Below are positions 3,646 through 36,353 of a stretch of 37,292 nucleotides of DNA, piece after piece. The stretch is taken from positions 1 through 37,292 of the forward strand of contig JAFUDV010000066.1 of assembly GCA_017464245.1 (NCBI GenBank), given 5' to 3'. Origin of the DNA: Bacteroidales bacterium. Lineage in GTDB: Bacteria; Bacteroidota; Bacteroidia; Bacteroidales; UBA932. Every line of letters starts with the position of its first letter. Position 1 is the first letter of the stretch. Position numbers and translations under genes: made by a program. The notes below the pieces were generated by a model, which had not been told where the DNA came from, did not search any database, and saw only the letters and a program-made list of their open reading frames with translations.

Positions 3646-3663
3646 CCTGAAATGTGCCTGAAT

Positions 3664-20137: not shown

Positions 20138-21967
20138 ATGATACTTAGTTTTCATCTTTTTTACAAAAAGGTACTCGTTTTTCCAATCGCGGTTCTCCTT
20201 TCCGGAGCCTGCTCGTCATGCTCGGAAACGGCTCCGGTGCAGGAAGATACGAGGGGCGGAAAGACCGTCCCGGTGACGGGGGTGAACCTCCTGAAGAACA
20301 CCCTCGAACTTACCATAGGGGACGTGACCCGGCTGGGGATCAAGGTGACCCCTTCGAACGCCACGAACCCCCGCGTGACCTGGAGTATCGACGATACGGC
20401 CGTGGCGACGGTGGAAAAGGAGAGCGGAGCGATCAAGGCCGTCAGTGCCGGCAGCGCCGTCCTCACCGTGACGACCGTGGACGGCGGATTCACCGACTCC
20501 TGCACGCTGACGGTGAAGGAGACGGCGACGCCTTCGCAGCCCACTCCCACCGATCCCGGCGCCCCCGCCGCCTATGGGGCCGTGCCTACGGAGGGCCAGC
20601 TGGCCTGGCAGCGCCAGGAACTCCTGATGTTCTACCACTACGGTCAGGCCACCTTCTCCGGCTGGGACGGCGAGAACCCTACCTGCAACGGAAAGCCCTG
20701 GTCCGAGAGCCTCCTTCTCCAGAATTACGCTCCCGCGACGGTGGATGCGGACCAGTGGGTGAAGGTGGCGAAGGACAACGGCTTCGGCGAGGTGATCATC
20801 ACGGCCAAGCACCATGACGGCTTCTGCCTGTGGGACAATCCCGAAAGCACGACGGACGTGGCCAACGCTGCCTGCAAGAACCATACGGACGTGGTCCAGG
20901 CTGTCCGCGACGCCTGCAACAAGTACGGCGTGAACATGGGCATCTATCTCTCCCCGTGGGACCGGATGATCGAGGTTTCCGGGAAGAGCACGTCCCAGTA
21001 TGAGACGATGTACAAGAACGCCCTCAAGGACTTGATGACCCGTTATGCTCCGGTCGTGGAGATGTGGTTCGACGGCAACCATGCCGGAAACTTCGACTGG
21101 CCGGCGGTGAACAGGACCGTGCTGGATGTCAACGACCAGTGCGTCATCTTCTCCAACGGCGGTCCCGGCTGCCGCTGGGTGGGCAACGAGCAGGGTGTCG
21201 CCGGCGAGACCAACTGGTCCACCCTCGACCGCGAGGGCCGCGGTCTCACCCCGGGCAACCTGCCCGGCAACTACGAGTCCTACCTGGGCTCCGGCGACAA
21301 GGGCGCCTCGTCCTGGGTCCCTGCCGAGTGCGACTTCTCCATCCAGCAGATCGGCGACCCCAACGGCTGGTTCTACGGCGCGAACGACAGCCGGAAGACC
21401 GCCCGCGACCTGATGGAACTCTACTACAAGAGCGTGGGCCGCAACTCCGTGTTCCTGATGAACGTCCCGCCGTCCGACAAGGGCGTCATCGACGCGAAGG
21501 AAGTGAAGGTCATCGAAGAATTCACGAAGATGCGCCAGGCGGTGTTCGCCACGAACCTCGCTGACGGAGCCACCGCCTCGGCCTCCAGCATCCGCGGCAA
21601 CTATGCCGAGAAATACGGCCCCCAGCACCTCCTGGACGGGGATCCGGACACCTATTTCGCCACGGGTGACGACGTGAAGACCGTGGACATCGAGTTCACC
21701 CTCGCGGGCGCCAGGACCTTCAACCGCGTCCAGCTGCAGGAGTACATCGCCCTGGGCCAGCGGGTGGAAAGCTTCGACATCCAGGTCCATGTGAACGGCG
21801 CCTGGCAGTCCTGGGGAAGCGGCGCCAAGACCACCATCGGCCACAAGCGGATCATCCTGGGAGGCCGCGTGACGGCCGACGCCGTGCGCATTTCCATCAA
21901 GTCCTCCCTGGCCTGCCCGGTCCTGAGCGGCTTCGCCCTGTATGACGATACCGTTTCCGGCTTATGA
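20138..21967 (+). CDS. Alpha-L-fucosidase, GH29, with Big_2 and F5/8C-like domains, probable lipoprotein
   Basis: This 609-residue secreted enzyme should remove alpha-linked fucose from glycans. The N-terminus is hydrophobic and ends in SGACSSC, a probable lipidation site. Residues about 44-127 form a Big_2 Ig-like domain (PSNATNPRVTWSIDDTAVATV). The GH29 catalytic domain, about 145-455, has MFYHYGQATFSGW, ITAKHHDGFCLWD, GIYLSPWD, and VVEMWFDGN with the predicted nucleophile Asp312; the late FLMNVPPSDKGVID is also typical. Residues about 475-608 resemble an F5/8-type C (CBM32-like) domain (YGPQHLLDGDPDTYFATG). The sequence suggests the alpha-1,3/4-active branch of GH29 but does not settle it. 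It is the first gene of the second PUL and overlaps the next gene by four bases. Confidence 0.9.
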   Translation: MILSFHLFYKKVLVFPIAVLLSGACSSCSETAPVQEDTRGGKTVPVTGVNLLKNTLELTIGDVTRLGIKVTPSNATNPRVTWSIDDTAVATVEKESGAIKAVSAGSAVLTVTTVDGGFTDSCTLTVKETATPSQPTPTDPGAPAAYGAVPTEGQLAWQRQELLMFYHYGQATFSGWDGENPTCNGKPWSESLLLQNYAPATVDADQWVKVAKDNGFGEVIITAKHHDGFCLWDNPESTTDVANAACKNHTDVVQAVRDACNKYGVNMGIYLSPWDRMIEVSGKSTSQYETMYKNALKDLMTRYAPVVEMWFDGNHAGNFDWPAVNRTVLDVNDQCVIFSNGGPGCRWVGNEQGVAGETNWSTLDREGRGLTPGNLPGNYESYLGSGDKGASSWVPAECDFSIQQIGDPNGWFYGANDSRKTARDLMELYYKSVGRNSVFLMNVPPSDKGVIDAKEVKVIEEFTKMRQAVFATNLADGATASASSIRGNYAEKYGPQHLLDGDPDTYFATGDDVKTVDIEFTLAGARTFNRVQLQEYIALGQRVESFDIQVHVNGAWQSWGSGAKTTIGHKRIILGGRVTADAVRISIKSSLACPVLSGFALYDDTVSGL

Positions 21968-22701
21968 GGAGACGGCTGATCCTCCTGCTGCTCGCAGCGG
22001 CCGCCGCGTGCGCGCCCAAGGACGGTATCCGGACCATCCGGACCGTCGAAGGGAAGGATGCGGACCTGGGGAAGATCCTGGAGGCTGACGGTCCCGTGAC
22101 CGTCCGGCTCGTGGCGAAGAGCGAGCTCTCCGACACCCTGTATCCCGTCCAGCTGTACACCCCCTGCGGATGCACCGAGGCGCGGTTCGACCGCAAACCG
22201 GTCGCGCCCGGCGAGGACGAGGTGATCGAAGTGACCTACAATCCCGCCTACCGGCCCGGGCCCATGCGGGAGGAGGTCCAGGTCCAGTACCGGAACTCCC
22301 CGGTGAAGGTGCGCACCTTCGCCATCAAGGGCCGGGTCGTGGGCTTCAACCATCCCATCGAGGAAGACCGCCCCTATGCCTATGGCGGGGGACTGTACAT
22401 GAGCCATAAGGTCCTGAGCTACGGCGCCTTGCGCCCTGGCGAGACGGGCGATTTCTTTTTCCGCCACGGCAACGGGAACACCCGCAGGGCCCGGATCGAA
22501 TTCGACATCCCCGATGCGTGGAAACCCTATCTCCGGATGCGCCAGCCCGGCAGGATGAAGGCCGACGAGCGCGACACCATCCATGTGAAGTTCACGATGC
22601 CCGACGGGCTGGATTCCGTGGAATTCACCGTCCAGCCCCGCGTGGACGGGAAGCCCACGGAAGAGGTCCTGACCGTCCGGGCGTACAAGAAACAACAATA
22701 A
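21964..22701 (+). CDS. DUF1573 domain lipoprotein
   Basis: This 245-residue protein has a short lipoprotein signal (Cys16 in AAAAC). The DUF1573 signature is visible: LYTPCGCTEARFDRKPVAPGEDEVIEVTYNP, about residues 60-95, then a strand ending in TFAIKGRVVGF. A second beta-rich domain, about 130-240, includes FFFRHGNGNTRRARIEFD. DUF1573 domains adopt an ASPM/SPD-2/Hydin-like Ig fold and are common in Bacteroidetes, but no activity is established. Its ATG overlaps the fucosidase stop (ATGA), so the two are translationally coupled. Its role in the PUL is unknown; it could be a periplasmic or surface assembly factor. Confidence 0.78.
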   Translation: MRRRLILLLLAAAAACAPKDGIRTIRTVEGKDADLGKILEADGPVTVRLVAKSELSDTLYPVQLYTPCGCTEARFDRKPVAPGEDEVIEVTYNPAYRPGPMREEVQVQYRNSPVKVRTFAIKGRVVGFNHPIEEDRPYAYGGGLYMSHKVLSYGALRPGETGDFFFRHGNGNTRRARIEFDIPDAWKPYLRMRQPGRMKADERDTIHVKFTMPDGLDSVEFTVQPRVDGKPTEEVLTVRAYKKQQ

Positions 22702-22732
22702 TCCTTTTATATATTAACCAACCAAACACCTT

Positions 22733-25700
22733 ATGAGTTTCCAACTTAAGAAAGTCCTGACAGGGGTCCTCGCGGCCGCTGCGGGGCTGTTCATCACTGG
22801 CGGACTCGCCCTGGCCCAGAACCGGACCATCACGGGTACCGTCACGGATGACTACGGTGAACCGCTCATCGGCGCCAGCGTCGTCGTGGAGGGGGACAGC
22901 TCGACAGGATCCATCACCGACCTGGACGGTCGTTATTCCATCACCGTCCCGGCCACGGTGGAGGCCCTGCGCTTCTCCTACATCGGCCAGGAAGACGTCG
23001 TGGAGCAGATCGGAGGCCGTTCGGTCATCAATGTCACCCTGGCAGCGGCCAACAACGTCCTGAACGCGACGGTGGTCACCGCCATGGGCATCCGAAAGGA
23101 GGAGAAATCCCTCTCCTACAACGTCCAGCAGGCCAAGATCGAGACCGTGAGCCCGGTGGGCTCCTTCGTGAACGGCCTGAACGGAAAGGTGGCCGGTGTC
23201 TCCATCAGCCAGTCTTCCACGGGCGCGGGCGGCGCATCCCGTATCGTGATGCGCGGTTCCAAGTCCATCTCCAACAACAACAACGCGCTGTACGTGATCG
23301 ACGGTATCCCGATGCAGAGCCTCCGCGGCTCCCAGCCGGAAGGCGTCTATGCCGGCGCCGGCCAGACCGGTGACGTGCTCGGTTCCCTGAACCAGGACGA
23401 CATCGAGTCCATCTCCGTCCTCTCCGGTCCGTCCGCGGCGGCCCTGTACGGTGCCAACGCGGCGAACGGCGTCATCATCATCACCACCAAGAAGGGCGGC
23501 AAGGACCGCCTGGACATCGACTACTCCAACTCCACGACCTTCTCCCGCGCGTACGTGATGCCGCAGTTCCAGAACACCTACGGCCCGTCCTCGCCCGGTT
23601 CCTACTACAGCTGGGGCGCGAAGCTGGACACCCCGTCCGCCTACAATCCGCGTGACTTCTTCCAGACGGGCGTGAACGAGGTGAACTCCCTCTCCCTGTC
23701 CACGGGTACGGAGCGCAGCCAGACCTATGTGTCCGCCTCCGTCGCGAACGCACGCGGCATCATCCACAACAACAATGTGGGCCGCTACAACCTCTCCTTC
23801 CGCAACACGACCGACCTCGTGAAGGACATCCTCACGATGGACGTGAACATGACCTACGGCCGCGTGAACGAGCAGAACATGATCGCCCAGGGCGAATACG
23901 GCAACCCGATCGTCCCGGTGTACCTGTTCCCCGCGGGTGACGACTTCTCCAAGGTGGGCGTGTACGAGCGTTACGACACCGGCCGCAACATCAAGACCCA
24001 GTACTGGCCCTACGACTTCGAGCACTCGATGCAGAATCCTTACTGGATCACCGAGCACCAGAAGTGGCAGAACCAGAAGAACCGCATGATGGCTTCCGGC
24101 CAGCTCTCCTACAAGCCCCTGAAGTGGCTCACCCTGAGCACCCGGGCTAAGTACGACCGTACCGACGAGATCCAGGAGCGCAAGTTCGACGCCTCCACGA
24201 ACACCCTCTTCACCGAGGGCTCCAAGCACGGTTTCTACGGCCGCGTGAACCAGTACACCGAGCAGAAGTTCGGAGAAGTCCTCGCCACCTTCAACAAGTA
24301 CTTCGGTGACAACGTGTTCAACCTCACCGGTGTGGTGGGTGCCAACATCGACGACATCACCTTCCGCAGCGACAACGTCTCCGGCCCGCTGAAGACCGTC
24401 AACAACAAGTTCGACTACACCAACATCGACCAGAACAGTTCCCATACGCTGCTCTCCTCCGCAGGTTACCGCTACCAGAACCAGTCCGTGTTCGCGAACG
24501 CCCAGCTGGGCTGGCGCAGCAGGGTCTATCTGGACATGACCTACCGCGTGGACTGGAACTCCGCCCTGTACACGGCCGGCGGCATCACCTATCCGACCGT
24601 GGGCCTTTCCGGCATCGTGACGGAACTGCTCCCGTTCATGAAGAGTTCCTTCTTCCCCTACTGGAAGATCCGCGCCTCCTATTCCGAGGTGGGTAACGCC
24701 CCGGATCCGTCCCTGTTCCTGCTGGATCCCCGCCATGAGCAGGTGAGCGGCAACGTCGCGACCAGCGCCCGCCGCCGCAACACCGAGCTCGTTCCGGAGC
24801 GCACCAAGTCCTGGGAGCTGGGTACGAACATCCACTTCTTCGACAGCAAGGTCCAGCTGGATGCGACGTACTACTATGCCAAGACCTTCAACCAGTTCTT
24901 CGATCCCCGTATCTCCACCACCTCCCTCAACACGGACATGTACCTGAACGGCGGCCGGGTGGACAACACCGGTATCGAGATGGCCCTCCGCTTCGACGAC
25001 AACCGCGGCAAGTGGAACTACGGCACCTATCTCACCTGGACCTGGAACAGGAACAAGATCGTGGACCTGAAGTTCAAGGATCCCGAGAGCGGCACCCTGC
25101 GTGACGGCAACGGACTGCCCATGGGCGGTTTCGGCGGCCTGAACAACTTCCTGTACGAAGGCGGCACCCTGGGAGACGTGTACGTCACGACCATCGCCAC
25201 CGACGAGCACGGCTTCTACCGCCTCAACGCCGACGGCATGATCATCGCCGACTACGACGAGAAGGACATGATCTACGCCGGCTCCACCGACGCCAAGCAC
25301 CGTCTCTCCTGGGGCGGCCACCTGGGCTGGAACGGCCTTACCCTGAACTGGTTGTTCACCGCCCGCCTGGGCGGTATCGCCATCTCCAAGACGCAGGCCA
25401 TCCTGGACTACTACGGCGTGTCCCAGGATACCGCCGACGCCCGCGAGAAGGGTTACTTCGAGTTCAACGGCATGAAGACCTCCGACGTCCAGGGCTACTA
25501 CCAGACCCTGGGCATCCGCGACGGCATCATGAGCCAGTATGTCTATGACGCCACGAACGCCCGTCTGGCCGAACTCTCCCTGAACTATGACCTTCCGGTG
25601 AAGAAGCTCGGTTCCTGGGTCAAGGGCATCACCCTCTCCGTGGTGGGCAACAACCTCGCCATGCTGTACCTCAAGGCCCCGTTCGATCCCGAAATGACCT

Positions 25701-26260
25701 CCAACGTGGGTACTTACAACCAGGGCGTGGACTACTTCATGCAGCCTTCCACCCGCAGCCTCGGCTTCGCGGTGAAGATGCGCTTCGGCGGCAGCACCGC
25801 TTCCGCAGTCACCCCGGCCAGCGCTCCCGTCTATGTTCCTTCCGAGCCCCAGGTGGTCGAGAAGATCGTCGAGAAGGTGGTCGAGAAGGAAGTGGTCAAG
25901 GAGGTCGTGAAGGAAGTCAAGGTCCCGGCCCATACCGTGGACGCCTACAATGACGACCTGTACTTCATCATCGGCAAGGCCGAGATCCGTCCGGAGGAAG
26001 CCCTCAAGCTGGGCCGCATGGTCCAGGTCCTCAACGAGAACCCGGATGCGAAGATCACCGTCACCGGTTACGCCGACAGCGGAACCGGCAACGACCGGAT
26101 CAACACCGTCCTCTCCGCCCGCCGCGCCGCCAAGGTCGTGGACATGCTCGTGGAAGCCGGCATCGACCGGAGCCGGATCACGTCGGGTTCCGTCGCCGGT
26201 GACCGCGATGCATCCCAGAGCCCCGAATCCAACCGCGTCGCCGTATGTATCGTCAAATAA
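22733..26260 (+). CDS. SusC/RagA-family TonB-dependent transporter fused to a C-terminal OmpA-like domain
   Basis: This 1175-residue outer-membrane protein has a signal peptide cleaved near Ala28. A CarboxypepD_reg-like domain (TITGTVTDDYGEPLIGASV, about 31-105) is followed by the plug (ALYVIDGIPM, then AALYGANAANGVIIITTKKG, to about 255) and a barrel to about 1023 that closes with LGFAVKMRFGG. Then, unlike ordinary SusC proteins, a Val/Glu/Lys linker (about 1035-1065) leads to an OmpA-like domain (about 1073-1175). That domain has ITVTGYAD with Asp1115 and LSARRAAKV with Arg1131, matching the Asp/Arg pair that contacts diaminopimelate in OmpA/Pal proteins. The last strand ends NRVAVCIVK. The SusD partner follows. 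It likely imports glycan while tethered to peptidoglycan. One uninterrupted frame covers the fusion. Confidence 0.93.
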   Translation: MSFQLKKVLTGVLAAAAGLFITGGLALAQNRTITGTVTDDYGEPLIGASVVVEGDSSTGSITDLDGRYSITVPATVEALRFSYIGQEDVVEQIGGRSVINVTLAAANNVLNATVVTAMGIRKEEKSLSYNVQQAKIETVSPVGSFVNGLNGKVAGVSISQSSTGAGGASRIVMRGSKSISNNNNALYVIDGIPMQSLRGSQPEGVYAGAGQTGDVLGSLNQDDIESISVLSGPSAAALYGANAANGVIIITTKKGGKDRLDIDYSNSTTFSRAYVMPQFQNTYGPSSPGSYYSWGAKLDTPSAYNPRDFFQTGVNEVNSLSLSTGTERSQTYVSASVANARGIIHNNNVGRYNLSFRNTTDLVKDILTMDVNMTYGRVNEQNMIAQGEYGNPIVPVYLFPAGDDFSKVGVYERYDTGRNIKTQYWPYDFEHSMQNPYWITEHQKWQNQKNRMMASGQLSYKPLKWLTLSTRAKYDRTDEIQERKFDASTNTLFTEGSKHGFYGRVNQYTEQKFGEVLATFNKYFGDNVFNLTGVVGANIDDITFRSDNVSGPLKTVNNKFDYTNIDQNSSHTLLSSAGYRYQNQSVFANAQLGWRSRVYLDMTYRVDWNSALYTAGGITYPTVGLSGIVTELLPFMKSSFFPYWKIRASYSEVGNAPDPSLFLLDPRHEQVSGNVATSARRRNTELVPERTKSWELGTNIHFFDSKVQLDATYYYAKTFNQFFDPRISTTSLNTDMYLNGGRVDNTGIEMALRFDDNRGKWNYGTYLTWTWNRNKIVDLKFKDPESGTLRDGNGLPMGGFGGLNNFLYEGGTLGDVYVTTIATDEHGFYRLNADGMIIADYDEKDMIYAGSTDAKHRLSWGGHLGWNGLTLNWLFTARLGGIAISKTQAILDYYGVSQDTADAREKGYFEFNGMKTSDVQGYYQTLGIRDGIMSQYVYDATNARLAELSLNYDLPVKKLGSWVKGITLSVVGNNLAMLYLKAPFDPEMTSNVGTYNQGVDYFMQPSTRSLGFAVKMRFGGSTASAVTPASAPVYVPSEPQVVEKIVEKVVEKEVVKEVVKEVKVPAHTVDAYNDDLYFIIGKAEIRPEEALKLGRMVQVLNENPDAKITVTGYADSGTGNDRINTVLSARRAAKVVDMLVEAGIDRSRITSGSVAGDRDASQSPESNRVAVCIVK

Positions 26261-26271
26261 GCATGTGCCCT

Positions 26272-27852
26272 ATGAAACAGAATATCTTCAAATATATGCT
26301 GGTGGCGGCCGCTGCGCTGGCCGTCCTTGCCGGGTGCACCAAGAATTTCGAAGAGCTGGCCAAGAACCGCTTCGGCGTGAGTGACGAGCAGATGGCCCAG
26401 GACGGTCTCGCCCTCGGCGGCATGCTCCAGCAGCTCGAGCGTTCCGTCATCATCTACCGCGACGGAACCTGGCTGGACTCCGACTACCAGATTATGTACA
26501 ACCTGTGCGCCGAGACCTGGTGCGGCTATATGGCCCCCACCCTGAGCGACGGCCACAACGCCGGCTGGGACGTGAACGACGGCTGGCACCGCCGGCTGTT
26601 TACCGTCAAGTACCAGTACGCGATGGGCGGCTATGCCAACTTCGAGAAATCCGCCCTCGAGTACGGGATGGAGAACGAACTGGCGCTCGCCAAGGTCCTG
26701 AAAGTGGCCTCGATGCACCAGGTGGCCGACTACTACGGCCCCATCGCCTATTCCCACACCGGAGACCTCTCCAACCTCTACGACCCGCTGGACCAGGTGT
26801 ATGTCCAGTTCTTCGACGAACTCGACGAGTCCATCGACATCCTCGAGAAGGTGGCCGCCTCCGGCGCCAAGCTCCTGGAGGACTACGACCTCGTGTACGG
26901 CGGCGACGCCACCAAGTGGGTCCACTTCGCGAACTCCCTGCGCCTCCGCCTGGCGATGCGCGTGAGCTACGCCGATCCGGGCCTCGCCCGCGAAGAGGCC
27001 GAGAAATCCATAGGCAGTCCCTTCGGCGTGGTGGTCTCCAACAGCGAGAACGCCGTCATCACGGAGCCGGGCATGCACCATCCGATCTATGAGATCAACG
27101 TCGCTTTCAATGACGCCGACACCCAGATGGGCGCTTCCATGGACAGCTACCTGAACGGCTTCAACGATCCGCGCAAGTTCCTCATCGCCAAGCCGGCCGG
27201 TGACGGCAACCTGCACGGCGTGCGTCCGGGCATCTCCCCGAGCGCCTGGACCAACTACAAGAACACCGCCGCGAAGGTCTCCGCCCCGAACGCCGGCATC
27301 TATAAGATCTGCTGGCTGAACGCCGCCGAGGTGGCGTTCCTGCGCGCTGAAGGCGCCCTGAAGGGCTGGAACATGGGCGGTATGGCCCAGGAGTTCTACG
27401 AGCAGGGCATCCGGCTCTCCTTCGAGGAATGGGGTGCCGAGGGTGCCGCCGCCTATATCGCCAATACGACCGCCAAGCCGGCCGACTTCCGCGACAACGT
27501 GGCCCGTGCCCATGCCTCCGCTCCCTCCACCGTCACGATCGCCTGGAACAACGGTGATTCCGACGAGAAGAAGCTCGAGAAGATCGCCACCCAGAAGTGG
27601 ATCGCCCTGTTCCCGAACAGCGCCGAGGCCTGGGCGGAATACCGCCGCCTCCACTACCCGGTGCTGATCGCCCCGGCGAACAACTTCTCCAACGGCGTCG
27701 TGAGCACCGAGCAGGGCATCCGCCGCGTCCCGTATCCCGTCTCCGAGCAGACCGACAACCCCGAGGGCTATGCCTCCGGCGTCGCGGCCCTGGGTGGTGC
27801 GGACAACGCCGGCGTACGCCTGTGGTGGGACGCCAAGCCGTTCAACAATTAA
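26272..27852 (+). CDS. SusD-like (SusD/RagB superfamily) glycan-binding lipoprotein
   Basis: This 526-residue lipoprotein starts at the ATG at 26272: it begins the signal peptide MKQNIFKYMLVAAAALAVLAGC (Cys22), whereas the longer open frame from 26245 would overlap the SusC stop. The sequence resembles the SusD-like branch often paired with N-glycan or OmpA-associated transporters: NLCAETWCGYMAPT, KVASMHQVADYYGPIAYSHTG, and KWVHFANSLRLRLAMRVSYADP are family segments, and the late KLEKIATQKWIALFPNSAEAWAEYRR replaces the classic SusD RxxE...RWxDxxRW motif. It caps the SusC-OmpA transporter encoded 11 bases upstream. The ligand is probably the GH18 product of this locus (inference). Confidence 0.9.
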   Translation: MKQNIFKYMLVAAAALAVLAGCTKNFEELAKNRFGVSDEQMAQDGLALGGMLQQLERSVIIYRDGTWLDSDYQIMYNLCAETWCGYMAPTLSDGHNAGWDVNDGWHRRLFTVKYQYAMGGYANFEKSALEYGMENELALAKVLKVASMHQVADYYGPIAYSHTGDLSNLYDPLDQVYVQFFDELDESIDILEKVAASGAKLLEDYDLVYGGDATKWVHFANSLRLRLAMRVSYADPGLAREEAEKSIGSPFGVVVSNSENAVITEPGMHHPIYEINVAFNDADTQMGASMDSYLNGFNDPRKFLIAKPAGDGNLHGVRPGISPSAWTNYKNTAAKVSAPNAGIYKICWLNAAEVAFLRAEGALKGWNMGGMAQEFYEQGIRLSFEEWGAEGAAAYIANTTAKPADFRDNVARAHASAPSTVTIAWNNGDSDEKKLEKIATQKWIALFPNSAEAWAEYRRLHYPVLIAPANNFSNGVVSTEQGIRRVPYPVSEQTDNPEGYASGVAALGGADNAGVRLWWDAKPFNN

Positions 27853-27865
27853 TGATGCGTGAAAG

Positions 27866-29017
27866 ATGAAAAAGATATTGACCTTATTCCCGATCGTCCT
27901 GGCGGCCGCCCTCCTGGCCTCCAGCTGCGACACCAAGGTGGAGAAGCTCGAAATCCAGCATTTCAACACGTACGACCTCGAGAAGGACGCCCAGGATCCC
28001 TATTACCAGGGTCTCCGCGAGTGGAAGCAGTCCAAGCATACCGTTTCGTATGTGTATTTCGCAGCCTGGGCCCCGCCGGAAGGTGCCACGAGCCTGTTCA
28101 TCGAGTACAAGACCATGCGGCCGCGCCTGATGGCCCTGCCGGATTCGCTGGATATCGTGAACCTGTGGATGGGCACCCCCATGAAAGAGGAGTATACCGA
28201 CGCCTGTTTCTACGGCAACGTGAAAAACCAGGAGACCGGCGAGATCGAGCATGCGCCCCTGCACACCTATGACTATTCCCCGAACGCCTACGCGGACCTC
28301 GAGTACTGCCAGAAGGTGAAGGGCACCCGCTTCGTCATGCATGCCGACGCTTCGCACTACGGCCAGGAATTCGACCTCGTGGACGAAGCCAGCGGCGAAG
28401 TCAAGCACTGGGTCGTCCAGCGCGGCGACCGCGCCTCCATCGAGGCCTATGCCAAACTCGTCGTGGACATCGTGAACACCCACGGCCTGGACGGCGTGGA
28501 CTTCGACTATGAAGGCTGGGCCTCCGGCGACATGACCATCTGCATCCAGAAGGCTGGCGAATACTTCGGCCCCAAGGGTTCCGACCCCTCGAAACTCCTC
28601 ATCGTGGACTACTTCGGCGGCTATCCCAGCGGAGACATCGAGCCGTATATCGACTACCTTGTGAAGCAGGCCTATTCCATGCAGGGCTCCGGTGTCGGCG
28701 GCCCTTCCTGGTGCCCCGAGTCCAAGATGGTCTACTGCGAGCAGTACGAACAGTCCTCCGACGAAGGCCCCAACTACCTGAACGGCGGCTATCCCACCAA
28801 CATGACCACCGAAGGCGGTGCTCCGATGTACACCCTCGAGCGTTACGCCCGCTATGCCAACGAGGCGGGCCAGGGAGAAGGCGGCTTCGGTGCCTACTAT
28901 ATCGACAATGACTATGCGAACGGCGTGGAGGCGCTCAAGGCCAAGGGCTATTCCGGGACCTACCTGAACTACGCGTTCCTCCGCCGCGCCATCCAGATCG
29001 TGAACCCTGCCAAGTAA
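27866..29017 (+). CDS. GH18 glycosidase, probable endo-beta-N-acetylglucosaminidase, lipoprotein
   Basis: This 383-residue lipoprotein has Cys21 in LLASSC. It is a compact single-domain GH18: the catalytic DxxDxDxE is intact at Asp209, Asp212, Asp214 and Glu216 (LDGVDFDYEGW), preceded by TRFVMHADASHYG and followed by LLIVDYFGG and VKQAYSMQG. Proteins of this size and layout in Bacteroidetes PULs, next to SusC/SusD and DUF1735-LamG genes, are typically endo-beta-N-acetylglucosaminidases that release N-glycans from glycoproteins by cutting the chitobiose core. The fucosidase in the same operon fits that. A non-catalytic GH18-fold binder is less likely because all acidic catalytic residues are present. 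It lies 13 bases after the SusD-like gene. Confidence 0.88.
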   Translation: MKKILTLFPIVLAAALLASSCDTKVEKLEIQHFNTYDLEKDAQDPYYQGLREWKQSKHTVSYVYFAAWAPPEGATSLFIEYKTMRPRLMALPDSLDIVNLWMGTPMKEEYTDACFYGNVKNQETGEIEHAPLHTYDYSPNAYADLEYCQKVKGTRFVMHADASHYGQEFDLVDEASGEVKHWVVQRGDRASIEAYAKLVVDIVNTHGLDGVDFDYEGWASGDMTICIQKAGEYFGPKGSDPSKLLIVDYFGGYPSGDIEPYIDYLVKQAYSMQGSGVGGPSWCPESKMVYCEQYEQSSDEGPNYLNGGYPTNMTTEGGAPMYTLERYARYANEAGQGEGGFGAYYIDNDYANGVEALKAKGYSGTYLNYAFLRRAIQIVNPAK

Positions 29018-29027
29018 GAGAAGCCTT

Positions 29028-30278
29028 ATGAAAAAGTATATCCTCATTTTCGGTGCCGCGGCCCTGAGCCTGGCTGCCTGCACCCAGAAGGCCGATCATT
29101 TCGACTATGGCCAGGAGATCGCCGTCATCACCGGGACCGACGCCTCGCCGGTCTCCAAGGACCAGATCCTGGCGGACGAGATTCCGATCAGCTACAACTT
29201 CTCCGTGTCCCTGACGGGCATCGCCGAGGAGGACGTGGACGTGCACATCTCCTACGACAGTCTTGCCGTCGCCCGCTACAACGACCTGAACAAGACCAGC
29301 TATGCGGCCGTTCCCCGCAACACCTTCGTCATCAACGACGAATACGTCACCATCAAGAAGGGAACCGCCACTTCTCCGATGACCTCCGTGACCCTGCGCG
29401 ACAACTCGTTCATCCAGGAAGGCGTGAACTACGTGATCCCGCTCTCCGTCGCCTACATGAACGGCGGCAAGGCCGGCATCCTGGAGTCCTCCAGAAACCT
29501 GTTCATCCGGATCGGAAAGACCATGGAGACTTTCTCCCTGGAAATTCCGAACATCGGCGTGTACTCCACCTACAATCTGGGGGCCGGGTACAACCTGGGG
29601 GACAACTGGACCCTCGAGATCAAGGCCCATCCGTACAACATGAAGTCCCGCGGTTCCGACCAGCTGTGCCGTCTGGCCTGCTGGAACGAAGACGGTGGCG
29701 GTCAGGTGCTGCTCCGTTTCAACGAGAACGGAAAGCCCTGGAAGACCCTGGACATCGTTTCCGTCAACGGCCGCTATGTCACGGGAGCCACGACCGCGGA
29801 CGCCAGCGGTGAAGGAGTCTTCAATGTGAACCAGTGGTACATGATCTCCATCGTCTGGAACGGTTCCGACATGAGCGTCTATATCAACGGTGAAAAAGAC
29901 ACCCCCTGGCAGAACACCATCTCCGGCAGCCAGGCGTTCAACCTGAACCGCTTCGAAATCGGCATGTCCTGGGGCGGTTACGGTTCCTCCCAGAGCTACA
30001 CCGGCCGCATGGCGGAAATGCGTATCTGGAACATCGCCCGCAGTGCGAGCGACATCGCTTCCACCCAGTGCTCCGTGGATCCCAAGTCCGAAGGCCTCGT
30101 AGGCTACTGGAAGATGAACGAAGGCGAAGGCCACATCTTCCACGACTCCGTGGCCGGCAACGACATGGACTGGGACAAGTCCGAGCGTCAGAAGGACGAA
30201 GCCAATTATGTCACGACCCCGGAGGCCGGCGCCTCCATCGTGTGGGTGAAGGACGAAAAGAACAAGTGTGCACAATAA
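29028..30278 (+). CDS. DUF1735-LamG surface lipoprotein, probable glycan-binding protein
   Basis: This 416-residue lipoprotein has Cys18 in SLAAC. The N-terminal part, about residues 20-165, is DUF1735-like: VSLTGIAEEDVDVHISYDS, YNDLNKTSYAAVPRNTFVIND, and the TSVTLRDNSF...YVIPLSVA strand pair. A LamG/concanavalin-like domain occupies about 175-405: DNWTLEIKAHPYN, WYMISIVWNGSDMSVYING, FEIGMSWGGYG, MAEMRIWNIARSASDI, and GLVGYWKMNEGEGHIFHD. DUF1735-LamG proteins accompany GH18 enzymes in N-glycan PULs and are thought to bind the glycan at the surface. The LamG part is related to the two LamG domains of the next gene. The two genes are adjacent with no gap in the reading region. Confidence 0.84.
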   Translation: MKKYILIFGAAALSLAACTQKADHFDYGQEIAVITGTDASPVSKDQILADEIPISYNFSVSLTGIAEEDVDVHISYDSLAVARYNDLNKTSYAAVPRNTFVINDEYVTIKKGTATSPMTSVTLRDNSFIQEGVNYVIPLSVAYMNGGKAGILESSRNLFIRIGKTMETFSLEIPNIGVYSTYNLGAGYNLGDNWTLEIKAHPYNMKSRGSDQLCRLACWNEDGGGQVLLRFNENGKPWKTLDIVSVNGRYVTGATTADASGEGVFNVNQWYMISIVWNGSDMSVYINGEKDTPWQNTISGSQAFNLNRFEIGMSWGGYGSSQSYTGRMAEMRIWNIARSASDIASTQCSVDPKSEGLVGYWKMNEGEGHIFHDSVAGNDMDWDKSERQKDEANYVTTPEAGASIVWVKDEKNKCAQ

Positions 30279-30299
30279 ATGAACAAAACTAATAATTCC

Positions 30300-32984
30300 A
30301 TGAAAAAGTTATTTACTGCTTTCGCACTGGGACTCCTCCTCGTGGGGTGCGCCCGGGAGTATGACGACTCCGAGCTCCGCAACCGGGTCACCACGCTGGA
30401 GACCAAGGTGGGCAACCTCGAGGCCAACATGAAGGCCATCCAGGACGCGACCAACGACGGCATGTTCGTCCAGAGCGTCGAAGAATTCACCGAGGACGGA
30501 AAGGTCGTCGGCGTGACCGTCACCTACACGACCGGCAAGGTCGTGCACTTCCAGATCTCCGGCGCCGGCGCCGAGACCAACCTCTCCGCCATCCGCAACG
30601 CCTCCGGCGCCCTCTGCTGGGCCCTGAACGGCGAAATCATCAAGGTGGACGGCAAGGACCTCGAGGTGGGCCAGACCCCTTCCTTCTCCGTGAAGGACGG
30701 CCACCTGCTGATGACCGTCGACGGCAAGACCACCGACATCGGCGCCATGGGCGGCGGCCTGGGCGACGCCATCTTCAAGGACATCAAGGTCACCGAGAAG
30801 GCCGTGGTCCTCACCCTGGACGATGGCAGCACCCTCGAGATCCCCTTCGCCAAGGCGTTCAAGCTCGTCATTGCGAAGACCCAGTACGCCGTGACCACCA
30901 CCGATCCGATCGAGATTCCCTACACCGTGGAGAACAAGACCGCCAACACCGTGGTGGACGTCTTCACCGACGCCAACTATGAGGCCACTGTCGATGACAG
31001 CAAGATCACCGTCACCCCGCTCGTCGTCGCGAAGGGTTCCGCCCTCGCCTATGCCGACTCCCAGGTGGGCCTGACCTCCATCGTGAAGCTCACTTTCGGC
31101 GCCGAAGCCGAGGCCGACAAGTTCGAGATCACGGACGCCGACATCAACTACATCGCCGAGGCCAAGGACGCCACCGTCGAGGCCCACGCCGTCTCCAACA
31201 TCGCCTTTGACGTCAAGCCGCAGGTGGACTGGATCCACTACGTGGAGACCCGCGCCCAGAACTACACCATCGTCCTCAAGGTCGATGACAACCCCACCGA
31301 GGAAATCCGCACCGGCGAAGTGAAGATCGTCCGTGCCGGTACCGACGAGACCCTCCAGACCATCACCATCGCCCAGAAGGCCGGTGAGGCCGAGCCCAAG
31401 CCCGAGATGGAGCCCTACACCCCGGCCGGCTGGAACAAGGTGTTCGACGCTTCCGACTACAAGGTGAATTCCACCTTCATCTGGGACACCCCGATTTCCG
31501 TGAATCCGGGCAATGTCACGCTGCAGGTGAAGTTCTGGTCCAAACACTGGAACGACCACAAGTTCAATGAGAAGGATGCCCAGGGACATACCCTGTACAG
31601 CAACCGCCTCGGTGAATTCGCTACGGCAGACGAGAAACAGTCCGTCCTGTTCCGCTTCTCCAACGACGGTGACGCCGACGGCCAGCTGTGCCTCAACGCC
31701 GGTGTCCTCGGTGTGAACCAGGCGCAGGTCCGCAAGGGCGACGCCCCGTACGTATGGCCCCTTGAAGAGTGGGTCGTGATGACCATCGTCAGCGACGGGA
31801 CCCAGGTCCATGTCTATGACGACGAGGAACTCATCGCCTCCTACAATGCCAGCCCGGCCGACAGTTGGGATCTCGCCCGCTTCGACATCTCCATGACTTG
31901 GGATGACGGCAGCAACTGGCCGCTCACCCAGGCGTTCAACGGTTACATCGGCTTCGCCCGTGTCTGGAACCGCGCCCTGAGCGTGGAGGACATCGCCACC
32001 ACCCTGTGCGAAGTCCCTGCCTCCAAGGCCGAAGGCCTTGTGGCCAACTGGGTCTTCAACGGCGCTGAGGACAAGTATGTCGCCAACACCGTGAATGAGG
32101 CCCAGAGCCTGGACTTCACCGAGTGCTGGGACGGCAACGGCAACCGCAAGGACAACGGCGATGCCGCCGCTGCCGCTTGGAAGACCCTCGAAGATGCCGG
32201 CATGGAAGGCATCTGCCTCCGCGAAAAGGGCAGTGTGACTCCGGGTGGCGATGACCCGCAGCCCACCGGCAACATGAAAGCCATGTACTGGGGCAACCCG
32301 CAGGCATCCGCCTGGTACAAGGAGTTCAACCGGGCCTTGAATCTCTCCGATGGTTACACGGTGATGATTCACTTCATTTATGAGAATGCCAAGGGACAGC
32401 GTCTGTGCAACTTCGGCAGCAAGGACGAGGCTCCGTGCAACATGTTCCGCTTCGGTGAACGCGGCGATGCGAACCAACTCGAATGGATGGTCGATGCTCC
32501 TACCAGCAGCAACCGCATCAAGCTCTACGCAGGCGGTTTCGAGGCCGGCAAGTGGGGCTCTGTCGCAGTTTCCTACGCCACGGACGGTACAGCCAAGATG
32601 TACGGGAATGGTATCCTGACCGACACCAAAGCCGGACAGTATCCCACCGGAGTCCAGTTCCAGGGCTTTGAGTTTGCCAACTCCTGGGGTGATTCCTATC
32701 GTTCCGCCTTCGACGGCGCCATTGCATATGTTTCTGTCTGGAGCCGCGTTCTGACGGATGACGAAATCGCGGCCAACGCTTTCAAGGAACCTTCCGGGAA
32801 CGGCCTTGAGGCTTTCTGGCCCATGAACGAAGGGGAAGGTTTCGTCTTCCATGACAAGACTGGAAAGTATGATGATATCGACCTTCACTACATGACTCGT
32901 TGCAACAACGAAGTCAGCTATGTGGACTTTGACTCTACCCCGTATGTAGAGTGGAGAGAGTATCCTGCCCTAAAGGCTGAGTAA
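30300..32984 (+). CDS. DUF4988-BACON lipoprotein with two LamG-like domains
   Basis: This 894-residue lipoprotein starts at the ATG at 30300 (signal MKKLFTAFALGLLLVGC, Cys17); the longer frame from 30279 adds seven unlikely residues. After the Cys comes AREYDDSELRNRVTTLETKV, a coiled-coil/DUF4988 start nearly parallel to the protein at 13242. VVLTLDDGSTLEIPFAKAFKL and a BACON-like segment (HAVSNIAFDVKPQVDWIHYV) follow to about residue 365. Two LamG-like domains, about 375-620 and 640-890, each end in a related RVWNRALSVEDIA or SVWSRVLTDDEIA motif; only the second finishes with the full MNEGEGFVFHD strand. It is probably a multivalent surface glycan-binding protein, and it is the last gene before the terminator. 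Confidence 0.83.
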   Translation: MKKLFTAFALGLLLVGCAREYDDSELRNRVTTLETKVGNLEANMKAIQDATNDGMFVQSVEEFTEDGKVVGVTVTYTTGKVVHFQISGAGAETNLSAIRNASGALCWALNGEIIKVDGKDLEVGQTPSFSVKDGHLLMTVDGKTTDIGAMGGGLGDAIFKDIKVTEKAVVLTLDDGSTLEIPFAKAFKLVIAKTQYAVTTTDPIEIPYTVENKTANTVVDVFTDANYEATVDDSKITVTPLVVAKGSALAYADSQVGLTSIVKLTFGAEAEADKFEITDADINYIAEAKDATVEAHAVSNIAFDVKPQVDWIHYVETRAQNYTIVLKVDDNPTEEIRTGEVKIVRAGTDETLQTITIAQKAGEAEPKPEMEPYTPAGWNKVFDASDYKVNSTFIWDTPISVNPGNVTLQVKFWSKHWNDHKFNEKDAQGHTLYSNRLGEFATADEKQSVLFRFSNDGDADGQLCLNAGVLGVNQAQVRKGDAPYVWPLEEWVVMTIVSDGTQVHVYDDEELIASYNASPADSWDLARFDISMTWDDGSNWPLTQAFNGYIGFARVWNRALSVEDIATTLCEVPASKAEGLVANWVFNGAEDKYVANTVNEAQSLDFTECWDGNGNRKDNGDAAAAAWKTLEDAGMEGICLREKGSVTPGGDDPQPTGNMKAMYWGNPQASAWYKEFNRALNLSDGYTVMIHFIYENAKGQRLCNFGSKDEAPCNMFRFGERGDANQLEWMVDAPTSSNRIKLYAGGFEAGKWGSVAVSYATDGTAKMYGNGILTDTKAGQYPTGVQFQGFEFANSWGDSYRSAFDGAIAYVSVWSRVLTDDEIAANAFKEPSGNGLEAFWPMNEGEGFVFHDKTGKYDDIDLHYMTRCNNEVSYVDFDSTPYVEWREYPALKAE

Positions 32985-34038: not shown

Positions 34039-35091
34039 ATGAGTGACGATAAATACTTACGCTCCATAGAAGACCTGGAGAAATTAGCATGCAATTGGTG
34101 GCCGATTGAGGTTCGCGAGGAAGCTCAGAAAATGAGTATCCTTCAGTATTTACTAGACACCCAGGAAAGGTTTATTTCCATTTTGAAATTGGCCAATAAA
34201 AAGAAGCCAGAAAAGATTTTCGAGCTTCTTAAGGCTTCATCTTTTGATTACCATCTATTTCTAAAACACCTCATTCTTTTAACTGACCTTGGCGCAGAGC
34301 AATTACAACGCATTAACAAGGTTTTCGACTCTCTTTTCCCGGATCACAAACTCGTTTATAAACAGGGAAGAAAAGAAGAGTCATATCTGTTTTCTGCACT
34401 CCCGACAAAGGGAGCCCTTAACAACAAAAAACTAAAGATAGATACTCTAGAGCACCTGAAGTCCTCTTCCTATAATGAGGCCCTATGTAAAGACCTAATA
34501 ATGATGTTGATTTTCGGGGCGTCTTCTACGAACCGCCAAGTAAAGTCTGTCCTTTATAAGTGCAATTGTAACGAATACCTTGGGGACGACACGAAAATTG
34601 AGGACTTCGTCAGGAAGAATTATATACGTGTTAGCAGAATTATTGCGGGGAAGGAGTCCAATGACCTGGGTAATAAAGCACAAGAATATGCGATGAACTA
34701 TCTTTCAAAGAAATTGGGAGATGGTTATCGGCTACAGAGTAACGGCAAATTGCCCGATGTCTCCGAAAACGACGGGAAAACATGGGCGACATTTGACATT
34801 CTTGTTGATCGAATTGATGATACGAGCAAATATAAGCCTTACATTGCCGTAGAAGTTTCATTCCAAGAAACGTCAAACAGTGTCGTTGAGAGAAAATCCA
34901 AGTTGGCCAGAAACAGATTCGTCCAGGTTTCCGGGCGGCGTAGTTTTGTAGCGTACATTCTAGACGGGATTGGCAATTTCTCGAGGGCTGCTGCCATTCG
35001 CACTCTTTGCGAGAACAGCCACTGCACCGTAGCCTATACCCCAGAGGAATTTGATGTGTTGGCGGAGTTTATTCGCAAAAAGCTAGGATGA
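34039..35091 (+). CDS. Probable type II restriction endonuclease (PD-(D/E)XK-like C-terminal domain)
   Basis: This 350-residue protein has no signal peptide. Its N-terminal ~200 residues are helical and unrecognised. The C-terminal part looks nuclease-like: NDLGNKAQEYAMNYLSKKLG, then TFDILVD with Asp253, then YIAVEVSFQE with Glu272, followed by a basic ERKSKLARNRF stretch. That fits a PD-(D/E)XK fold in which the usual Lys is replaced (E-V-S, with Gln276/Glu277 nearby). The strongest evidence is context: its stop overlaps the ATG of a C5-cytosine methyltransferase (ATGA, 35088-35091), the usual layout of a type II system. Size and partner fit a BanI/HgiCI-like pair, but that link rests on memory of the methyltransferase. 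AT-richer than the PUL genes, so probably acquired. Confidence 0.68.
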   Translation: MSDDKYLRSIEDLEKLACNWWPIEVREEAQKMSILQYLLDTQERFISILKLANKKKPEKIFELLKASSFDYHLFLKHLILLTDLGAEQLQRINKVFDSLFPDHKLVYKQGRKEESYLFSALPTKGALNNKKLKIDTLEHLKSSSYNEALCKDLIMMLIFGASSTNRQVKSVLYKCNCNEYLGDDTKIEDFVRKNYIRVSRIIAGKESNDLGNKAQEYAMNYLSKKLGDGYRLQSNGKLPDVSENDGKTWATFDILVDRIDDTSKYKPYIAVEVSFQETSNSVVERKSKLARNRFVQVSGRRSFVAYILDGIGNFSRAAAIRTLCENSHCTVAYTPEEFDVLAEFIRKKLG

Positions 35092-36353
35092 TACGGTTTA
35101 TAGATTTATTCGCCGGTATCGGTGGTATACGAATAGGAGCGACTGAAGCCCTCAAAGAGTTTGGTATTCAGTCAAGGTGTGTACTCTCAAGTGAAATTGA
35201 TGAGAACGCATGCCTTACTTATAACCTGAACTTCAATGAAAAGCCCAGTGGCGATATCCGTTGTATTACAGAATCCGAACCATTTGACCTCCTGCTGGGA
35301 GGATTCCCTTGCCAACCTTTTTCATACGCGGGCAAACGTATGGGCTTTGGAGACACTCGTGGAACATTGTTCTTTGAGATTGAGCGCTTGTTGGAAAAAT
35401 ACCGCCCCAAGGCTTTCCTTTTGGAGAATGTCCGCGGTCTTTATTCCCATGATGGAGGCCGGACGTTTGAAACTATCATTGGAAAACTCCACGGTCTTGG
35501 ATACGGCACCTATGACCTATTGTTGAACAGCTCAAACTTTGGTGTGCCGCAGAACCGTGTAAGGCTTTATATTGTTGGGATATTAGGCGCGAATCCAGAT
35601 ATGTCTTTAGCCACTAATCTGGGCGCTGCGGATTCTCACAGCTTTAAGAATGAATATACTCTTTTTGATGACCAGACAATAATCCGTCATACCGTTGGAG
35701 ATATTCTTGAGAACAATGTAGACGAGAAATACTATTGCTCTGAGGACTTCCAGGAACGTTTACGTAGAGCAACGGGTGGTAACCTCTCTATGCTTCACGG
35801 CTACAGAATGATGGATTATCGCGGCGGCCAGTCTCTCCATTCTTGGGATCTCGGCTTGCGCGGTGAATGCTCTCCCGCTGAGCGCAATTTCATGACGCTG
35901 CTCATCCAGAATCGTCGCAAGCCAGAATTTGGCCGTCATCAAGACGGGAAAAAACTGAGCTTGGAGCAAATCAAGACATTCTATACTGACGATGATATCT
36001 TGGATGTGATTGAAAGCCTAAAGGCAAAGCATTATCTTAAGGAGGAGGGCGGAAAATACAACCCTGTTTGTGGTAACATGTCGTTCGAGGTGTTCAAATT
36101 CCTTGACCCGGACAGCATTTCTATCACCTTAACCTCTTCTGATTCAAATCGCCTTGGTGTAATCCAGAACAACCGTGCGCGTCATATTACGCCCCGAGAA
36201 TGTGCCAGGCTTCAGGGCTTCCCGGACTCCTTCAAACTTCATCCTTTGGACCAATACTCTTATAAGCAGTTCGGTAATTCTGTCTCGGTTCCCGTGATTA
36301 CCGCCGTCATGAAGGATTTCATTCGATCTAATAGAGAGGTGCTCAGATGGTAG
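35088..36353 (+). CDS. C5-cytosine DNA methyltransferase of a type II restriction-modification system
   Basis: This 421-residue enzyme transfers a methyl group from SAM to C5 of cytosine in its recognition site. All main motifs are in order: I (FIDLFAGIGG, residue 4 on), IV with catalytic Cys75 (GGFPCQPFSYAGKRMGFGD), VI with Glu113 (LLENVRGL), VIII (QNRVRLYIVG), IX (RECARLQGFPDSF), and X (FGNSVSVPVI). The target-recognition region lies about residues 190-345 and includes HSWDLGLRGEC and GRHQDGKKLSLEQIKTFY. From memory these segments resemble M.BanI/HgiCI (GGYRCC), a hypothesis only. It protects host DNA from the overlapping upstream nuclease. The neighbouring vsr would repair its deamination products. 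Confidence 0.95.
   Translation: MIRFIDLFAGIGGIRIGATEALKEFGIQSRCVLSSEIDENACLTYNLNFNEKPSGDIRCITESEPFDLLLGGFPCQPFSYAGKRMGFGDTRGTLFFEIERLLEKYRPKAFLLENVRGLYSHDGGRTFETIIGKLHGLGYGTYDLLLNSSNFGVPQNRVRLYIVGILGANPDMSLATNLGAADSHSFKNEYTLFDDQTIIRHTVGDILENNVDEKYYCSEDFQERLRRATGGNLSMLHGYRMMDYRGGQSLHSWDLGLRGECSPAERNFMTLLIQNRRKPEFGRHQDGKKLSLEQIKTFYTDDDILDVIESLKAKHYLKEEGGKYNPVCGNMSFEVFKFLDPDSISITLTSSDSNRLGVIQNNRARHITPRECARLQGFPDSFKLHPLDQYSYKQFGNSVSVPVITAVMKDFIRSNREVLRW

Follow-up and report, generated by a model that had tools for sequence, protein, structure and literature searches.

A SusC importer that continues into an OmpA-like domain, and the exchange of that domain among SusC genes of Bacteroidales

SusCD complexes are a main route of glycan import in Bacteroidota, and they may float free or stay fixed in the envelope. 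Which of the two holds is a question raised by a single gene of a Bacteroidales bacterium (lineage UBA932, assembly GCA_017464245.1), carried on contig JAFUDV010000066.1. All 37,292 nucleotides of this contig, one of the 97 that make up the draft genome G000, are referred to here as the window. An earlier note, made from the letters of the window, had described this gene as coding for a SusC transporter with a built-in peptidoglycan anchor of the OmpA type. Does such a fusion exist beyond this contig, and what could a wall-binding type of domain be doing on a TonB-dependent importer? At the level of sequence, the comparisons described below establish that the fusion exists, that it occurs on many distant SusCs, most of them from one genus, that its tail is under purifying selection, that the OmpA domain has been exchanged between non-orthologous SusC genes, and that the tail has been secondarily lost with a scar. 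We infer that the tail would bind the wall, hold the complex in place and help it to withstand the pull of TonB, and we hold it probable that the protein is a SusC importer whose periplasmic OmpA-like tail would bind diaminopimelate through Asp1115 and Arg1131, tying the SusCD complex to the wall.

A SusC barrel continued by an OmpA-like domain

The gene starts with an ATG at 22733 and reaches a TAA at 26258-26260 with zero internal stops. Its product matches the whole of the NCBIfam SusC/RagA model TIGR04056 (residues 31-1018, 592 bits, cut-off 368.25) as well as the signature TIGR04057 (58.2 bits, cut-off 46.2), so that its membership of the SusC/RagA family stands, as a variant that extends 157 residues past the last barrel strand, unlike the usual SusC end. 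Directly N-terminal of the plug, the stretch NATVVTAMG looks by eye like a TonB box, resembling the DEVVVTG given for Bt1763 in an account of that transporter (PMC7782687). At the other end of the protein, PF00691 covers residues 1077-1166 (51.5 bits, cut-off 27.2, model positions 1-92 of 98), and the nearest solved domains by profile include that of a major outer membrane protein (9uu2), 6top, and the peptidoglycan-associated domains of Pal (1oap/2hqs) and omp38 (3td3). Models of whole OmpA-bearing proteins stay below their cut-offs, as seen for the porin equivalogs PRK10808 (33.3 bits, cut-off 277) and Omp38 (25 bits, cut-off 500), both matched by the C-terminal stretch only, for the PorE model NF052230 (50.6 bits, cut-off 600), matched by residues 1059-1151 alone, and for the Pal model (33.4 bits, cut-off 125.35). 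Judged from these profile matches, the window protein is a TonB-dependent SusC importer continuing via a linker into a periplasmic OmpA-like domain, and the coordinates, frame, domains, linker and positions of Asp1115 and Arg1131 that had been given for it all proved right, the last strand being LGFAVKMRF.

SusC proteins were said in the earlier note to stop usually at their last strand with an aromatic residue. In agreement with this, 25 of the 27 untailed relatives with a stop codon end there (on Phe in 20, Leu in four and Tyr in one), the other two, from genomes G028 and G396, bear a scar that is described below, and a 28th (L014) meets its contig end after its Phe. TonB-dependent barrels have both termini in the periplasm, and therefore the OmpA tail need not traverse the membrane: the crossing to the periplasm that had been postulated for the C-terminus falls away, while the periplasmic location of the domain follows by construction.

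Distribution, exchange and loss of the tail

An occurrence of the fusion in this assembly only, which would have pointed to two genes joined by error, is excluded, since the same fusion is found in many separate assemblies. A scan of named genome contigs with a profile made from 14 tails returned 355 stretches, 261 of which encode a relative. Among the best 80 of these 261 loci, which were kept, the tail lies in 75 in a frame of at least 900 residues that matches the SusC part as well, four reach the contig end and one (L109) has 683 residues; BLAST matches the SusC part of the window protein (P0001) in 77; the record titles name Bacteroidales or Bacteroidia, and every animal named is a ruminant. 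For the genus, which may be Cryptobacteroides, 400 genomes were searched; frames of 900 residues or more account for 110 of the 150 best rows and come from 41 genomes, with the SusC part not confirmed row by row. A sample of the family (99 genomes, 25 genera) yielded one tailed frame outside the genus (G850, on the same contig as L071). In samples of the order (393 genomes) and of the phylum (296), no SusC-OmpA fusion beyond that of the window's genome appeared among the best 150 rows listed, with 11-15 candidates scored per genome, a search that fusions with another OmpA subtype could escape. Three frames of at least 900 residues from outside the genus (G1160, G902 and G795) were set aside as not SusC, two being VWA-OmpA proteins and one a TPR/CarboxypepD/OmpA/SPOR protein. 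Orthologues with the same linker, proposed beforehand as one support for the fusion, are many, and a Val/Glu/Lys (VEK-type) linker is present in 95 of 97 tailed frames.

Several fusions may share a genome. That of the window holds a second one (G000:C55), with a barrel 24% identical to the window's. Counts of TIGR04056 matches, partial genes included, and of OmpA domains matched in frames of 900 residues or more are respectively 37 and 2 in G000, 27 and 7 in G271, 25 and 7 in G351, 39 and 9 in G156 (where 40 of 46 candidates were scored for TIGR04056 and two of the nine are equal copies), 39 (40 of 44 scored) and 5 in G365, 36 and 0 in G028, and 39 and 0 in G396. The earlier note knew of no described case, and our search of the open-licence literature, with subscription papers mostly outside its coverage, likewise found neither a SusC-OmpA fusion nor its traffic between genes. 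The components are familiar ones. Their combination, a TonB-dependent importer linked to a wall-binding type of domain, and the exchange between genes appear new in that we could not find them described.

Exchange is best seen in the DNA. Between L174 (genome G394) and L178 (G149), identity amounts to 3030/3108 (97.5%) in the SusC DNA, 126/138 (91.3%) in the linker and 801/832 (96.3%) in the SusD part, versus 215/332 (64.8%) in the OmpA domain. On this comparison the OmpA domain alone is replaced, the 5' edge of the swap lying within the Val/Glu/Lys repeats and the 3' edge about 70-120 bases past the stop. L108, which is one gene with L174, shows the opposite pattern when aligned to the other fusion of the window's genome (L050), with 304/336 (90.5%) identity in the OmpA domain versus 1489/2719 (54.8%) in the barrel DNA and 47.7% in the region beyond. 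Close tails on unlike barrels were also found for L107/L112 (94.9% vs 64.4%), L091/L105 (87.2% vs 54.5%) and L083/L111 (86.6% vs 54.4%), pairs picked from 18 compared, others of which, such as the window with L065 and L066, are without contrast. Moreover, of the 4656 pairs that the 97 distinct tailed frames can form, 87 combine tails at least 78% identical with barrels less than 50% identical.

Could errors of sequencing or assembly have fused two genes, or chimeric assemblies have mimicked the swaps? All the genomes are drafts, and one swap on one contig could be a chimera. However, at L174/L178 a chimera could arise only through two joins about 400 bases or less apart that lead back into the same cluster, and several pairs combine a high tail with a low barrel identity, which, added to the many separate assemblies bearing the same fusion, makes an artefact hardly credible.

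The exchange also seems to have a component internal to genomes. Tails on unlike barrels are 66.4% identical within the same genome (75 pairs) versus 61.1% between different genomes (3796 pairs), a difference that none of 5000 shuffles reached. In 13 of 70 cases, versus 1.8 expected, a tail has its nearest non-orthologous counterpart in its own genome. These comparisons were made on 92 of the 97 frames (five short rows excluded). Such a likeness fits gene conversion within genomes, to which shared genome ancestry may contribute. The codons of the Val/Glu/Lys linker would probably act both as a spacer and as the homology through which tails recombine. We incline modestly towards a mobile anchor, that is, a wall-binding OmpA cassette that would move between distant transporters of a ruminant-gut Bacteroidales lineage, with the linker as recombination handle, and through which the lineage would set, on an evolutionary time scale, which SusCDs are fixed to the wall and which float.

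The tail can also be lost. When the window protein was searched against the 400 genomes of the genus (E <=1e-150), the rows of at least 76% identity comprised, besides the window, 17 tailed ones (15 genomes, two with two equal copies), two untailed (G028 and G396) and one cut by a contig edge (G358). Five rows at 68-70% identity and nine at 56-62% terminate before the tail, and at 44-49% there are twelve tailed rows and many untailed; tailed and untailed SusCs are thus intermixed in one subfamily. A recent gain of the tail in the window's lineage, suggested by the untailed nearest orthologues of a first sample (G028 at 79% and G006 at 69%), was rejected when a larger sample, the tree and the scar pointed to loss in G028 and G396. 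In the barrel tree, from which the topology and the placement of these two were used and the count of changes excluded, G028 and G396 are paired and nested among tailed rows, with the tailed G133 as sister (Shimodaira-Hasegawa-like approximate likelihood ratio test, SH-aLRT, 99). Their C-termini read ..KFGSVNSVK and ..KFGHVSNVK, encoded by DNA that ends in gttaaaTAA, and the flank behind it contains AGAGCGC, or a close variant, together with ATGGATATGAAA. This scar and its flank match the tail end and flank of G133, not those of six untailed outgroups, and the simplest account would be an in-frame deletion running from the barrel end to the last tail codons. The cluster of G028 is collinear with window positions 20542-32943 at 72-80% DNA identity, and the unaligned segment 25777-26334 contains the tail. 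A PF00691 search of each of the genomes G028 and G396 found no tailed SusC. Two other window orthologues, L144 (G394:C43) and L145 (G149:C19), have one internal TAG within the part that was matched, which may be a loss or a sequence error.

Regarding the ancestry of the domain, a tree (FastTree, few columns) places 95 of the 97 tails together, apart from the sampled free OmpA domains save four long-branch ones, it being noted that L210 and L038, among the 39 rows labelled free, are tailed SusCs. No donor of the tail was found among these sampled free domains. Three fusions of genome G012 (L060, L061 and L062) have an alanine-rich, coiled-coil-like linker replacing the Val/Glu/Lys one, and the tails of L060 and L061 may have arisen separately, as a second origin of the fusion. 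Another kind of tail, here called the second tail type, ends in NRRVTVSIVNE or similar and occurs on a related SusC subfamily (L171-L173 and L176-L182), one member of which, L182, groups with untailed SusCs on the barrel tree.

A possible anchor to the wall

All 97 tails carry equivalents of Asp1115 and Arg1131, and Gly1112, Ala1114, Thr1118, Gly1119, Asn1124, Leu1127 and others are also kept, with Arg1131, Asn1124 and Gly1112 in all 97 despite wide divergence. In the OmpA of A. baumannii, a report on that protein describes binding of diaminopimelate by Asp271 and Arg286, which are the equivalents of this pair (PMC5974059). The ratio of nonsynonymous to synonymous substitution rates (dN/dS) of the tail lies between 0.00 and 0.40 in 14 of 14 pairs, being below that of the barrel in nine and above it in five, which argues that the OmpA domain is kept for use; peptidoglycan binding would be its likely function. 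A captured domain that spreads by gene conversion without any benefit could produce the resemblance of same-genome tails beyond chance (66.4% vs 61.1%; 13/70 vs 1.8 expected), the tolerance of a clean loss and a constraint weaker than the barrel's in five of six close pairs of the window, but we regard such a neutral tail as improbable in the face of three residues invariant across divergent tails and of the dN/dS values of all 14 pairs. Another residue, Cys1172, lies near the end of the window's domain, in its last strand (NRVAVCIVK); it does not vary among the first 14 tails but is missing from the second tail type.

An open reading frame (ORF) lies downstream of 97 of 97 tailed genes; 71 of these ORFs resemble the SusDs of the window (phmmer), and nine of the remaining 26 were inspected by eye or with Pfam, the five scanned with Pfam being four SusDs and one BACON protein (L094). 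By eye, and by Pfam for L094, a tailed SusC is followed by a BACON-type lipoprotein with no SusD between in L094, L128, L133 and L058. The SusCD complexes of the levan system are described as dimers (PMC7618045), and therefore two anchors per complex would be expected.

The barrel runs on through its linker of about 50 residues into the periplasmic OmpA-like domain. In the mechanism that we propose, Asp1115 and Arg1131 would most likely let this domain grip diaminopimelate in the peptidoglycan, and the bound domain would fix the SusCD complex to the wall. The benefit would lie in the envelope or in the placement of the complex (resisting the pull of TonB, staying out of shed vesicles) and not in the choice of substrate. 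The tail sits on many distant SusCs, is exchanged, and is lost with its cluster unchanged, which suggests an envelope-level accessory more than a part in substrate handling; likewise, the same cluster with and without the tail, and the many unlike SusCs that carry it, favour placement or envelope mechanics over substrate choice. The interpretation in the earlier note holds for the periplasmic OmpA-like domain with its Asp/Arg pair and for the many orthologues, but not for the idea that the tail may replace a separate OmpA, which is unlikely because G000 retains four other OmpA-domain frames (364, 437, 397 and 220 residues); shorter OmpA-domain frames are also present in the other tailed genomes examined.

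How the benefit is distributed can be read in two further ways. The tail might serve the envelope itself, in that the abundant SusCs of a lineage would staple outer membrane and wall together at additional points and so lower blebbing; the carrier SusC would then hardly matter. We take this as a serious although tentative alternative, as tails occur on SusCs with barrels often merely 23-30% identical, several frames may be found per genome (nine in G156 and seven in each of G271 and G351), and the same cluster exists without the tail, none being seen in G028 and G396; the retention of other OmpA-domain proteins by the tailed genomes examined argues in the opposite direction. Alternatively, the tail could keep chosen SusCD complexes out of outer-membrane vesicles and so retain them on the cell. 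This role seems unlikely to us, even if it agrees with the tailing of a subset of SusCs (two frames vs 37 TIGR04056 matches in G000, seven vs 27 in G271) and with the expectation that a wall-bound protein would not easily depart in a vesicle.

The reading that we prefer, an importer tied to the wall by an exchangeable domain, has to be weighed against several observations. The SusCs of the window's own genome are mostly untailed, and the tail is dispensable, as G028 and G396 show no tailed SusC. The source sequences are draft genomes, mostly metagenome-assembled where the title states it, and the fold and barrel closure of the fusion are predicted from profile matches. Conservation of the Asp among the scanned loci was partly selected, because one of the two peptide patterns used to find these loci includes the Asp along with adjacent residues; the Arg lies in neither, and both residues are retained in 13 of 13 tailed rows fetched by SusC similarity instead of a tail pattern. 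In five of six pairs of the window with a close orthologue, dN/dS is 0.26-0.40 for the tail versus 0.11-0.14 for the barrel, and the tail is thus more loosely constrained than the barrel in the window's clade. Finally, for the tails of 16 orthologues of P0001 a single clade is not rejected by the approximately unbiased (AU) test (p 0.234), although the tree requires six changes and such a clade appears in none of 200 bootstrap trees, and for this reason the strongest evidence of exchange is that of the DNA comparisons, not of the tree.

Nature has provided here matched pairs in which the same cluster occurs with and without the anchor, or near-identical SusCs bear different anchors, and the effect of wall attachment on a TonB-dependent importer, on vesicle sorting and on outer membrane mechanics therefore becomes testable. 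Moreover, the exchange shows an OmpA domain acting as a swappable part, and a natural linker is made available for tying outer-membrane proteins to the wall.

The gene cluster and known systems

The fusion belongs to a glycan cluster (Table 1) that also comprises, upstream, a fucosidase-like protein, a second GH18 and a patatin (Pfam), and in which the two surface glycan-binding-type genes are collinear in the tail-less relative G028. From its protein families, the cluster looks like one that probably serves N-glycans or similar glycoproteins.

Table 1. Features of the fusion gene and of the genes downstream of it in the window
Feature	Coordinates	Strand	Basis
SusC-OmpA fusion protein, 1175 residues	22733..26260	+	Uninterrupted frame, Pfam and NCBIfam domains
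Probable signal peptide, residues 1-29, MSFQLKKVLTGVLAAAAGLFITGGLALAQ	22733..22819	+	Reading by eye
N-terminal extension, CarboxypepD_reg-like (PF13715), residues 33-115	22829..23077	+	Pfam 43.2 bits, cut-off 32.2
TonB-dependent receptor plug (PF07715), residues 131-247	23123..23473	+	Pfam 53.4 bits, cut-off 23.9
Last barrel strand LGFAVKMRF, residues 1010-1018	25760..25786	+	TIGR04056 match stops at 1018; untailed relatives terminate here
Repetitive Val/Glu/Lys linker, ~52 residues, about 1019-1070	25787..25942	+	VEK-type linker in 95/97 tailed frames
OmpA-like domain, residues 1071-1175	25943..26257	+	PF00691; Asp1115 = 26075-26077, Arg1131 = 26123-26125
Partner SusD lipoprotein	26272..27852	+	Start 26272 (MKQNIFKYMLVAAAALAVLAGC) favoured over listed ORF start 26245; PF12741 E 1e-159 (frame from 26245)
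GH18 BT1044-like / EndoS-like protein	27866..29017	+	Pfam; gene cluster of the fusion
Two surface glycan-binding-type proteins (BT_3987-like N-terminal + LamG; DUF4988 + BACON + LamG)	29028..32984	+	Pfam

Two other SusCs of the window were recognized by TIGR04056, with no Pfam match. That at 3652-6408 (+; 530.9 bits) is matched from model position 107 onward, is without the N-terminal extension and ends in a terminal Phe with no tail, and that at 16-1803 (+; 463.9 bits) has its 5' part cut by the contig edge. Just past the glycan cluster, at 34039-36353 (+), there is a BanI-type restriction enzyme beside a C5 cytosine methylase.

Compared with systems already described, the window fusion resembles SusC/RagA transporters such as Bt1763 in its N-terminal extension, plug, barrel, adjacent SusD and glycan cluster. 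The domains named for Bt1763, the SusC of the levan system, in the account cited above (PMC7782687) are an N-terminal extension (NTE), STN, TonB box, plug and barrel, whereas the window protein adds a linker and an OmpA domain after the barrel. With OmpA/OprF-type porins (PF00691) it shares the succession of a barrel, a flexible linker and a periplasmic OmpA-like domain with the Asp/Arg pair, but a small OmpA barrel is found there in place of a TonB-dependent importer of about 1000 residues, whose domain is moreover exchanged between genes. PorE/PG1058 of type IX secretion, as presented in the source consulted (PMC5053529; NF052230), likewise belongs to a Bacteroidota outer-membrane machine and carries, in one chain, a CarboxypepD-like domain and a putatively wall-binding domain of the OmpA_C type. 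It differs in being a scaffolding lipoprotein that has TPR and propeller domains, whereas the window fusion is a transporter. Pal, finally, has an OmpA-like domain as in the tail of the window protein, but on a small lipoprotein without a barrel.

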